Source of the DNA: Mesorhizobium sp. Z1-4
GTDB lineage: Bacteria > Pseudomonadota > Alphaproteobacteria > Rhizobiales > Rhizobiaceae
NCBI RefSeq assembly: GCF_004000235.1
Contig: NZ_RCIO01000001.1
Span: 744,001-808,000 of the forward strand
Length of the DNA: 64,000 nucleotides
Direction: 5' to 3'
Shown: positions 33,402 to 55,588 of the stretch, in pieces
How positions within the stretch are numbered: position 1 is the first letter of the stretch
How the letters are laid out: the number at the start of each line of letters is the position of its first letter
Notes under the pieces: model-generated
Database searches by the model: none
The model's input: the letters and a program-made list of their open reading frames with translations, nothing else
What the model was told of the DNA's origin: nothing
Made by a program: the position numbers and the translations under genes

Positions 33402-34250
33402 CTATTCAGGATCGGCGATGACGTCCTGTCGCTGGGAACCGAGGCCCTCGATGCCAAGTTCGACCACATCGCCCGGCCTGAGATAGCGCGGCGGCTTCTG
33501 GCCCATGCCAACACCGGGCGGCGTTCCGGTGGAGATCACATCGCCCGGATGCAGGCTCATGAAACGGCTCAGGTAGGAAACGAGGTGCCTGACCCCGTAG
33601 ACCATGGTGCGGGTCGAGCCGTCCTGCTTGGTCTCGCCATTCACCTTCAGCCACATTGAGAGGTTCTGCGGGTCTTCAACCTCGTCGCGGGTGACCAGCC
33701 ATGGTCCGATCTGGCCGAAATTGTCGCTCGACTTGCCCTTGGTCCACTGACCGGCACGCTCGATCTGGAAAGCGCGCTCGGAGACGTCATTGGTCACGGC
33801 GTAACCGGCCACGTAATCGAGAGCGTCCTCCTCCGACACGTATTTCGCGCGTTTGCCGATAATGACCGCAAGCTCGACTTCCCAGTCGGTCTTTTCGCTG
33901 CCGCGCGGAATGAGGATCGGGTCGTTCGGGCCGCAGATGGCGCTCGTCGCCTTCATGAAGATGACCGGTTCGGGCGGCACGTCCATGCCGCTCTCGGCGG
34001 CGTGGTCGGCATAGTTCAGGCCGATGCAGATGAATTTGCCGGTACCGGCCACGCAGGGGCCGAGCCGCGCAGCGGCCGGCGCCAGAGGCAGCGATGCGGG
34101 GTCGACCGCCGCCAGCCTCGCCAGGCCCGCTTGCGAGATCGCATCGCCGCCGATATCGGGCACCAGCCCGGAGAGGTCGCGGATCGCCCCATCTGAATCC
34201 ACAATGCCAGGCTTCTCGGCGCCGGGCTCACCAAAACGTACAAGTTTCAC
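33402..34250 (-). CDS. Fumarylacetoacetate hydrolase family protein (2,4-diketo-3-deoxy sugar acid hydrolase-like)
   Basis: 282 residues from a GTG start with AAGGAG six bases upstream. FAH-family blocks are KFICIGLNYADHAAE, PVIFMKATSAICGPNDPI, the metal-binding EVELAVIIGK with YAVTNDVSERAFQ, and DVISTGTPPGVGMGQKPP. Members with this N-terminal extension cleave 2,4-diketo-3-deoxy-L-fuconate or -rhamnonate into pyruvate and lactate. It is the last gene of an operon with an enolase-family dehydratase and two SDRs, exactly the enzyme set of that route, so that role is favoured; the stereochemistry cannot be read. The 281-base gap beyond it towards the M24 gene shows no convincing gene. Confidence 0.87.
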   Translation of the reverse strand: MKLVRFGEPGAEKPGIVDSDGAIRDLSGLVPDIGGDAISQAGLARLAAVDPASLPLAPAAARLGPCVAGTGKFICIGLNYADHAAESGMDVPPEPVIFMKATSAICGPNDPILIPRGSEKTDWEVELAVIIGKRAKYVSEEDALDYVAGYAVTNDVSERAFQIERAGQWTKGKSSDNFGQIGPWLVTRDEVEDPQNLSMWLKVNGETKQDGSTRTMVYGVRHLVSYLSRFMSLHPGDVISTGTPPGVGMGQKPPRYLRPGDVVELGIEGLGSQRQDVIADPE

Positions 34251-34261
34251 ATTCCGCTCCT

Positions 34262-34999
34262 TCAGATATTGGCCCAGCCGCCGTCGATCACGTGGATCCC
34301 GCCGGTGGTGTATGCGCTTTCGTCCGATGCAAGATAGACCACGAGTGCCGCGATTTCCTCAGGTTTGCCGATCCTGCCGATCGGCTGGCGGGCCACGAAA
34401 GCGGCCCGTGCTGCATCATAGTCCCCCCCTGCGGAAAGCCGCTGTTCGAGCGACGGGCTTTCGACAGTGCCGGGGCAAATCGCGTTGCAGCGGATGCCCT
34501 GTGTCACATAATCCGCGGCAATCGACTTCGTCATGCCGATGACGGCCGCCTTGGTGGTGCCGTAGACGAAGCGGTTGGGCGCCGCGATCACCGAAGATGC
34601 GACCGAGGACATGTTGATGATCGACGCGCCGCCAGCACCGATCATGGCCGGCAGGAAAGCCCGGATCATGCGGTACATCGCCGTGACATTGAGGCTGAAG
34701 GAAAACGCCCACTGATCCTCGTCGCAGTCCATTATCGTGCCGCCGGCGACGAAGCCGGCACAGTTGAACAGAACATCGGGCGCACCAACCTCGGCCGCCG
34801 CCTGAACGATCGCCTGCGGGTCGAGCACATCGAGGATACGCGTCTCGATGCCTTCACGTGCAAGCTCGGCGAGTGCCCCGGCATTGATGTCAGTGGCGAT
34901 TACCCGCGCGCCCTCGCGGGCCATTGCCAGCGCCGACGCCCGGCCTATGCCCTGCCCGGCCGCGGTTACCAGACATGTCTTCCCCTCTAGGCGCGACAT
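34262..34999 (-). CDS. SDR family oxidoreductase (2-keto-3-deoxy-L-fuconate dehydrogenase/BDH2-like)
   Basis: 245 residues from the ATG at 34999, with GAGGAG seven bases upstream. The Rossmann motif is [20 protein letters not shown]. The catalytic Ser is in [10 protein letters not shown], the Tyr-Lys pair in [14 protein letters not shown], and the C-terminus ends [13 protein letters not shown]. The ATDIN segment after the second strand predicts NAD specificity. The sequence style ([23 protein letters not shown]) matches the BDH2/2-keto-3-deoxy-L-fuconate dehydrogenase branch, which oxidises the C4 hydroxyl before FAH cleavage. It is 11 bases upstream of the FAH gene. Confidence 0.88.
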
Positions 35000-53977: not shown

Positions 53978-54103
53978 ATGCCCATCCGCCGGCAGCAGGC
54001 TGTGTAGGCGCATTCGATGCGCAACTCGCCCGCCGCAAAGGCCCGGACTGGAAATTTCGCTCCCGGCGTCGTATCCGGGTTTGTCCCAAATATCGGAGCC
54101 GCC

Positions 54104-55588
54104 GTGACCTACCGCAAGCTAGCAGCCCTGTCCGCCGCACTTCTTCTCACCACGTTGAGCGCCGAGGCCGAGACCTTGCGCTGGGGACGCGCCGGCGACG
54201 CCGCGACGCTCGATCCGCATGCCGCAGCGGACGGTTACACGCAGCAGCTGCTCCACAATATCTACGAGCCGCTGATCCGTTTCGAGCCGGGCGGCGCAGC
54301 GAGCGGTGTACTCGCCGCCTCGTGGCTGGCAAGCGCCGGCGATCCCAACCTTTGGGTGTTCAATCTCAAACGCGCCACCTTCCATGACGGAGCGGAGTTC
54401 GATGCCGAGGATGTGGTGTTCTCAATCAACCGGGCGCGCGCCGAGGGATCGGCCTTCGCCGGCGAAGCGTCGCAGATCATCTCGGTCCGCGAAACCAGCC
54501 CGCGCACGGTCGAAATCCGGATGGCCGAGCCTGCCGCGGCACCGCCCGCGGTGCTGACGCGCATTCTGATCATGGACAGCGGCTGGGCAAACGAAAACGG
54601 TTTGGCAAGCGCAAACAGCACTGCCGCCGACAAGGCAAACGGCACCGGGCCCTACAAACTCGAATCGCGCGATGCGGCGGTGCGCACCAAGCTGACTGCC
54701 AACGACCGTTATGCGGGACCGCCGCCTGCAGCGAAAGAAGTGGTCTACCTGCCGATCGCCGATAGCGAATTGCGCGGCAAGGCACTGGCCTGGGCCGAGC
54801 TCGAAATATTGCAGGACGTTTCGGCAGCCGATCTGAAGCGCCTCGACGGCATCGAAGATGTTGCCGTCGAGACCGCGCCGGCGAATTCCGTGCTCTATCT
54901 TGGTTACAGATTCGGGGCCGGCGGTGCCGACGGCAACCCGTTCGACAATGCTCTGGTGCGCGAAGCTATCGACCGCACGGTCGACCGCGACGAAGTGGCT
55001 TCTTTTGCGAACAGCGACGCGACCGCCATTCTGGCACCGTCATTTGCAGAAGGCTGGTCGAAGGGGTTGGCCGCGCAACTTTCGCCGAACCCCGCCAGGG
55101 CAAAGGAACTTCTGGCGGAGGCCGGCTACCCGGATGGTTTCGGCGTGAAGCTCGATGTCGCACGCGGCGACGAGGCAACCGCCAACCGGATCAAGGCAAT
55201 GCTGACCTCGATCGGCATCTGGGCCGATGTCGTGGCGCGGCCTCAAGCCGATCACGATGCGCATGTGGCCTCCGGCGAGAGCGCGTTTCATCTCAGCAGC
55301 TATTCCGCGCCGGGCTACGGCTCCGCGCCGATACTCAGCTGGCTGGTCGACGGCCAGAAAGGCTACGCCAATGCCGAGCTTTCGTCACAGGTCGCCGCGC
55401 TCGCAAATATCCGCAACAGGAACGAGCGCCGGACGGCGCTGGCCGGGCTCTGGCTCAACGTGCAGAAGGAGCGCATCGTGCTGCCGCTGGCGCAGCGCCG
55501 CGTCGCGCACGCCATGCGTGCCTCCGTGTCGGTTCAACCGGATCCCAACGGTCTGACCAGGTTCGACACGGTGCGTTTCAACGACTGA
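54104..55588 (+). CDS. Second Dpp-type ABC transporter substrate-binding protein (family 5)
   Basis: 494 residues from a GTG at 54104 with CGGAG five bases upstream. This start places the signal peptide (YRKLAALSAALLLTTLSAEAE) at the N-terminus, whereas an ATG at 54017 would add 29 odd residues in front. Family-5 blocks: WGRAGDAATLDPHAAADGYTQQLLHNIYEPL, DAEDVVFSINRARAEGS, KANGTGPYKLES and NPFDNALVREAIDRTVDRDEVA. No permease or ATPase follows, so it may feed the DppBCDF complex as an alternative receptor. It diverges strongly from the receptor at 48402. Confidence 0.86.
   Translation: MTYRKLAALSAALLLTTLSAEAETLRWGRAGDAATLDPHAAADGYTQQLLHNIYEPLIRFEPGGAASGVLAASWLASAGDPNLWVFNLKRATFHDGAEFDAEDVVFSINRARAEGSAFAGEASQIISVRETSPRTVEIRMAEPAAAPPAVLTRILIMDSGWANENGLASANSTAADKANGTGPYKLESRDAAVRTKLTANDRYAGPPPAAKEVVYLPIADSELRGKALAWAELEILQDVSAADLKRLDGIEDVAVETAPANSVLYLGYRFGAGGADGNPFDNALVREAIDRTVDRDEVASFANSDATAILAPSFAEGWSKGLAAQLSPNPARAKELLAEAGYPDGFGVKLDVARGDEATANRIKAMLTSIGIWADVVARPQADHDAHVASGESAFHLSSYSAPGYGSAPILSWLVDGQKGYANAELSSQVAALANIRNRNERRTALAGLWLNVQKERIVLPLAQRRVAHAMRASVSVQPDPNGLTRFDTVRFND

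Follow-up and report, generated by a model that had tools for sequence, protein, structure and literature searches.

Positions 33402 to 55588 of the window analyzed here (64,000 nucleotides of Mesorhizobium sp. Z1-4, contig NZ_RCIO01000001.1) hold a gene block encoding a GntR regulator, a peptide-type ABC importer (DppABCDF), two hydrolases (AspA and an MlrC-like protein), two mandelate-racemase-group enzymes (ENO1 and ENO2), two dehydrogenases (SDR1 and SDR2), a putative diketo-acid hydrolase (FAH), three sulfatases (SulfA, SulfB and SulfC) and a sulfatase-activating enzyme (FGE). Computationally, GntR is nearly certain to be the dedicated local regulator of this cluster. Because the switches recur at matching positions in related bacteria, GntR and its operator very probably govern the whole block. 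We favor, with moderate confidence, the interpretation that the block is a dedicated local catabolic regulon that would import, hydrolyze at an amide bond and oxidize a conjugated, sometimes sulfated, aldonic-type acid.

Operator sites and the GntR regulator

The regulator gene (47506..48264, minus strand) encodes a GntR/FCD protein with both domains over cut-off (PF00392, 47.3 bits; PF07729, 84.8 bits), and its orthologs travel with the cluster. A sequence-only reading of this DNA had described three near-identical 20-bp palindromes filling every divergent promoter region of the block; all three are present exactly where it placed them, and the gene starts confirm that the block has only three divergent pairs, each with one site. 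Operator 1 (37184-37203, ATAGTATACAATTATACAAT) falls inside the divergent starts of ENO1 and AspA (37134/37229), between the ENO1-SDR2-SDR1-FAH and AspA-MlrC-ENO2-SulfA units, and matches TTGTATA-N4-TATACnA exactly on the minus strand. Operator 2 (45910-45929, ATTGTATACTATTATACGAT), also an exact match, lies inside the starts of DppD and SulfC (45886/46021), between the DppDF-SulfB unit and SulfC. Operator 3 (48282-48301, ATTGTATACGATAATACGAT), with one mismatch, lies inside the starts of GntR and DppA (48264/48402), between GntR and the DppABC-FGE unit, a position that predicts GntR autoregulation. Set in one register, the sites read TTGTATAATTGTATACTA (site 1, minus strand), TTGTATACTATTATACGA (site 2) and TTGTATACGATAATACGA (site 3), with the common consensus TnGTATA-N4-TATACnA. 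The strict pattern ATTGTATACNNTATACAAT was tried as an operator model and rejected for its poor fit. An extra overlapping half-site, TATACGA, can be read directly after operator 3 (48302-48308), and a similar overlapping double site occurs in a related locus (L037, about 9959-9984).

On both strands of the window, the operator pattern with up to three mismatches gave 7 matches against 1.03 expected, and 7 or more were reached in 0/100 shuffles. A search of the whole 4.06-Mb genome for TTGTATA-N4-TATACnA, allowing up to one mismatch, gave four places, the three operators and C1:52320. The last sits inside an open reading frame resembling a polysaccharide polymerase and was rejected as a chance match; no further close intergenic match was found in this genome beyond the three block sites.

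A sample of 299 genomes of the family yielded GntR relatives in 8 other genomes, seven at 54–86% identity and one at 40%. Good GntR orthologs were collected from 29 loci of named genomes, several of them truncated; draft-genome loci are often cut, so gene counts over these 29 loci are lower bounds on presence. The loci come from Rhizobiaceae, Devosia, Nitratireductor, Pseudohoeflea, Tianweitania, Chelativorans, Rhodobacteraceae/Paracoccaceae (among them Oceanibium, Frigidibacter, Halovulum and Cereibacter), Alsobacter and Acetobacteraceae. The sequence-only reading had held that loss of the palindromes from orthologous loci would speak against a shared regulon. An operator with at most two mismatches is present in 27/29 loci, the two without it being the most distant (Acetobacteraceae). 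Despite rearranged gene order, the sites stand chiefly in the same three places: at GntR/DppA, where the operator 3 site is kept in nearly all orthologous loci; upstream of DppD, as for operator 2; and between ENO1 and AspA or MlrC, the promoter of operator 1. The orthologous loci, 491 kb in all, contain 32 exact sites and 28 with one mismatch, compared to 0 and 0.05 in first-order Markov versions of this DNA. When eight genomes were scanned, all exact matches lay in the cluster or, in G183, upstream of a DppD gene on a small contig; one-mismatch matches outside the cluster amounted to one each in three genomes (G000, G186 and G288). With sites kept at orthologous promoters across many Alphaproteobacteria and cluster-specific genome-wide, the claim of a regulon is strongly supported. 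GntR is predicted to bind the three sites, probably as a repressor, because repression is the usual mode of GntR/FCD-family regulators and no operator is more than about 50 bp from the nearer start codon of its divergent pair.

Rhizobiaceae, Devosiaceae and Paracoccaceae are intermixed on the GntR tree (L034-L062), a pattern that would fit horizontal exchange of the cluster. A sister regulon is suggested in Devosia, where paralogous GntR genes (42–44%) have AspA-family genes and related palindromes nearby (L038:16846-20696 and L039:2-6121).

Core, accessory and excluded genes

The conserved core consists of GntR, DppABCDF, AspA, the MlrC-like protein, ENO1 and ENO2, to which SDR1, SDR2 and FAH are added in some lineages. 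GntR was counted in 27/29 loci, as was the DppA-type family-5 solute-binding protein (48402..49973, plus strand; PF00496). The permeases DppB (50056..51003, plus; PF00528/PF19300) and DppC (50951..51907, plus; PF00528/PF12911) were found in 28/29 and 27/29 loci, and the ATPases DppD (44840..45886, minus) and DppF (43827..44843, minus), both with PF00005 and PF08352, in 21/29 and 22/29. Among the enzymes, AspA occurs in 19, MlrC in 20, ENO1 in 17 and ENO2 in 14 of the 29. The AlphaFold model of DppA is poor (predicted local distance difference test score of 54) and no ligand was deduced from it. One related locus (L035:6526-9870) carries a tandem pair of DppA-type binding proteins, the extra copy having its own operator site at 8145. 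Recurrent extra genes were sought in the gaps of related loci, with weak recurrence at best.

Sulfatase genes are accessory. SulfA (41030..42547, plus), SulfB (42550..43830, minus) and SulfC (46021..47475, plus) all belong to PF00884 and carry the CxPxR formylglycine motif (C-T-P-S-R, C-T-P-A-R and C-V-P-F-R, respectively), with N-termini that, read by eye, have no evident signal peptide. FGE (51855..52916, plus; PF03781; 306.6 bits to 5nxl) has the active-site Cys pair GGSHLCHTSYCHRYR. The whole genome contains six sulfatase and two FGE matches. A choline sulfatase identity was rejected, as the best candidate, SulfA, scored 309.6 bits against a TIGR03417 cut-off of 433.45. SulfC is found in 10/29 related loci, SulfB in 7/29, SulfA in 6/29 and FGE in 3/29; where present, these genes are spread over operator-controlled units, which supports joint regulation. 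The presence of SulfC on the GntR tree needs 4 changes, at least 3 of them forced by well supported branches. Extensive clusters lack any sulfatase (for example, G257, G186, G133, L037 and L039), and the regulon stands without adjoining sulfatases in loci of Devosia, Nitratireductor, Pseudohoeflea, Tianweitania, Chelativorans and Cereibacter. Because sulfatase-free regulons occur in many lineages, sulfate looks like an optional decoration of the substrate rather than a defining feature. The earlier description of the compound as sulfated therefore suits a subset of lineages, including this one with its three CxPxR sulfatases and FGE, and does not extend to the regulon in general.

Four neighboring genes or systems were rejected as members on their absence from all 29 related loci: AbrB, a second solute-binding protein, an M24 peptidase and a TRAP transporter. 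The first two, at the end of the dpp operon (window 52913-55588), had been counted into the regulon by the sequence-only reading as AbrB and a receptor, a placement that finds no support; AbrB is a membrane protein of the AbrB-duplication family, the receptor is another family-5 solute-binding protein, and the pair is possibly a recent addition. Its 'deacylase' is likewise refined to the AstE/AspA (DoeB-like) family, and the enzyme families it gave are borne out by Pfam. The TRAP transporter genes (DctP, DctQ and large subunit) lie just outside the block together with a divergent gene of the M24 creatinase/prolidase-like kind (window 28578-33120); as they accompany the regulon in none of the related loci, they appear to form a unit of their own.

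Hydrolases, sugar-acid enzymes and a putative route

AspA (37229..38260, plus; PF24827) is a putative zinc deacylase with HxxE and DxH motifs. Its nearest structure is 3CDX (564 bits), which carries no assigned function; DoeB (6twl) scores 220 bits, and equivalence to DoeB was rejected (TIGR02994, 283.6 bits against a cut-off of 402.7). The MlrC-like M81 metallohydrolase (38311..39810, plus; PF07364 and PF07171; 3iuu and 7ylq) has motifs matching the reported MlrC Zn-site residues (Glu, His, Asp, His and His), and equivalence to MlrC itself was rejected (NF041767, 128 bits against a cut-off of 999). On these family assignments, the cluster likely cleaves an amide or acyl bond. An 'amide-containing' compound, as first proposed, is plausible in light of the two families and of amidase/peptidase-like neighbors in relatives, evidence that names no bond. 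Such neighbors include a gamma-glutamyltranspeptidase (L044) and an acetamidase/formamidase-family FmdA_AmdA protein (L058). In one genome (G293:C23:78661-80229, L019/L020), a beta-lactamase-fold hydrolase lies next to GntR in the place of SulfC and an Amidohydro_3 gene follows DppC, an arrangement in which the core may accept interchangeable tailoring hydrolases.

ENO1 (35962..37134, minus), a candidate dehydratase or cycloisomerase, and ENO2 (39832..41010, plus; PF13378/PF02746) both contain, by motif, the three metal-binding acids, the Lys in KxGWGP at the second-strand position and the downstream His. ENO1 is distant from all named enzymes; its best fold neighbors 3sjn, 5olc and 4hpn share 26–33% identity, and the latter two are cycloisomerases. 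ENO2 is very close to the uncharacterised structure 2HZG (613.6 bits over 391 residues). Neither reaches the L-rhamnonate dehydratase cut-off of 393 (ENO1, 103.5; ENO2, 70.7), and L-fuconate dehydratase is only a distant match of ENO2. SDR1 (34262..35053, minus; nearest 8xwk, a solved enzyme of this type, at 319 bits) is of the L-2-keto-3-deoxyfuconate (KDF) 4-dehydrogenase type and keeps, in alignment with 8xwk, all three residues (Arg148, Arg192 and Arg214) that the authors of that enzyme call characteristic (PMC11199699). SDR2 (35190..35936, minus; nearest 9jve/9kq1/6d9y) is of the L-2-keto-3-deoxyrhamnonate (KDR) 4-dehydrogenase type, with Lys209 and Arg247 of 6D9Y conserved. The two types have opposite C4 stereoselectivity and give the same 2,4-diketo acid, which is cleaved by one hydrolase type (PMC11199699). 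By their residues, SDR1 and SDR2 are predicted not to be redundant. FAH (33402..34250, minus) is putatively of the 2,4-diketo-3-deoxy-aldonate hydrolase type; its nearest match is 8gsr (L-2,4-diketo-3-deoxyrhamnonate hydrolase, 324.5 bits), and it scores 425 bits to NF053535, below the cut-off of 500. The two C4-dehydrogenases with diagnostic residues, the putative diketo-acid hydrolase and the two dehydratase-type enolases support the 'sugar acid' of the original proposal, and the acid is likely aldonic or 6-deoxyaldonic.

In the route we propose, GntR would repress the operator-bearing units until released by a pathway compound. DppABCDF would take up a small conjugate. Once it is in the cytosol, FGE-matured sulfatases of the source genome would strip its sulfate. 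Two zinc hydrolases, the AspA-like and the MlrC-like protein, would cut amide (acyl or peptidyl) bonds to yield aldonic-type acids, which ENO1 and ENO2 would dehydrate (or cycloisomerize) to 2-keto-3-deoxy acids. The KDF-type SDR1 and the KDR-type SDR2 would oxidize opposite C4 epimers to one 2,4-diketo acid. FAH would split this, releasing pyruvate together with a hydroxy acid, which would be L-lactate for a 6-deoxyhexonate and glycolate for a pentonate. Read most simply, the pathway would converge from two C4-epimeric acids, or from a single acid plus its epimerized form. In line with this route, an SDR2 homolog is found in 8/8 regulon-bearing genomes versus 37/119 other family genomes (Fisher 1.6e-4), a comparison uncorrected for phylogeny.

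Competing readings and known systems

Several points weigh against this catabolic assignment. The substrate class is drawn from enzyme families, and for AspA, the M81 protein, the sulfatases and the enolases similarity only suggests a function. Few characterized members have given the AspA and M81 families their names, and the bond that each would cleave here can only be guessed. That GntR binds the sites and represses is a prediction. SDR1, SDR2 and FAH occur in just 7/29, 6/29 and 5/29 related loci, some truncated. ENO2 could be an epimerase, and the acid may be other than L-fuconate or L-rhamnonate, because ENO1 is not close to their dehydratases.

The core, with its peptide-type importer and AspA/DoeB-like and MlrC-like hydrolases, would also serve a peptide or N-acyl-amino-acid pathway of the microcystin-degradation kind, and in relatives regulon genes adjoin those for a beta-lactamase-fold hydrolase (MlrB domain type), an Amidohydro_3 protein and a gamma-glutamyltranspeptidase. 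The enolases would then be epimerases or act on hydroxy-acid residues, with the SDR and FAH genes mere neighbors for a different sugar. We consider this unlikely, as a single operator in the window, and in several relatives, precedes ENO1, SDR2 and FAH running in one direction, their homologs co-occur elsewhere in regulon-bearing genomes, and acid-sugar dehydratases are the best-scoring matches of both enolases. An SDR2 homolog is still present in 4/4 regulon-bearing genomes in which it lies outside the cluster (p = 0.011, uncorrected for phylogeny). The mlrABCD system (PMC12474180) resembles the block in its M81 MlrC-type metallohydrolase with matching Zn-site motifs and in peptide-type uptake; unlike that system, the block links the M81 enzyme to sugar-acid enzymes, and Pfam annotation of the block proteins gave no mlrA, mlrB or mlrD neighbors. 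Similarly, AspA falls in the branch of AstE/AspA that includes DoeB of ectoine degradation, but the remaining doe cluster is not in the block and AspA is nearest to 3CDX.

A pathway for sulfated 6-deoxy-sugar (fucose/rhamnose) oligosaccharides of the fucoidan or ulvan kind, with ABC import, cytosolic desulfation and the non-phosphorylating L-fucose/L-rhamnose route, is quite unlikely. In its favor, SDR1, SDR2 and, putatively, FAH belong to the L-fucose and L-rhamnose types, three sulfatases and FGE lie in the block, and sulfated methyl pentoses are a known class of marine substrate (PMC8857213). However, no glycoside hydrolase or lactonase family was found in the block by Pfam, both SDRs are of the 4-dehydrogenase type, leaving no aldose dehydrogenase, many lineages without sulfatases keep AspA and MlrC, and neither enolase scores as an L-rhamnonate or L-fuconate dehydratase. 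Non-phosphorylating L-fucose/L-rhamnose route III (PMC11199699 and PMC6336799) shares with the block the C4-dehydrogenase types with their diagnostic residues and, putatively, the hydrolase type and the products pyruvate and hydroxy acid. In contrast to that route, the block has both epimer-specific dehydrogenases together, other dehydratases, amide-type hydrolases and a peptide-type importer. Because the known dehydratase and the aldose dehydrogenase/lactonase features both fail, we do not class the block as an L-fucose/L-rhamnose pathway.

Several regulator families recognize AT-rich palindromes, and pairing GntR with the sites is a sequence-based prediction; it is nevertheless very improbable that another regulator binds them, or that they are chance or structural elements with an unrelated GntR adjoining, as site and GntR ortholog co-occur over many divergent loci, rearranged gene orders included, and the chance expectation for sites is near zero.

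Two further systems partly resemble the block. The carrageenan regulon of Zobellia galactanivorans (PMC5698469) is also multi-unit, with sulfatases and the enolase-superfamily DauB (5olc), a fold neighbor of ENO1; that polysaccharide system, from Bacteroidota, differs in its glycoside hydrolases, AraC-family regulator and 2-keto-3-deoxygalactonate kinase route. In marine SAR202 bacteria (PMC6946804), enolase-superfamily, sulfatase and dipeptide-transport families are abundant as well, but as genome-wide expansions rather than a defined regulon. The statement in the sequence-only reading that no known pathway joins the whole set agrees with the open-licence literature, in which no description of the combination, cluster or operator was found. 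The parts are known, and their combination into a GntR-controlled catabolic regulon appears to be new. As a more tentative possibility, the compound degraded may represent an undescribed natural class, amide-conjugated deoxy-sugar or aldonic acids, sulfated in some habitats and degraded by a convergent two-epimer route III.

The regulon offers a testable functional frame for the structural-genomics orphans 2HZG (close to ENO2) and 3CDX (close to AspA), for a GntR protein whose operator is defined and for one branch of the M81 family, which is poorly understood. Its desulfation module comes and goes while the operators stay the same, pointing to a compound that exists both plain and sulfated and would be imported before desulfation. 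The inducer, once found, would reveal a nutrient common to many Alphaproteobacteria.

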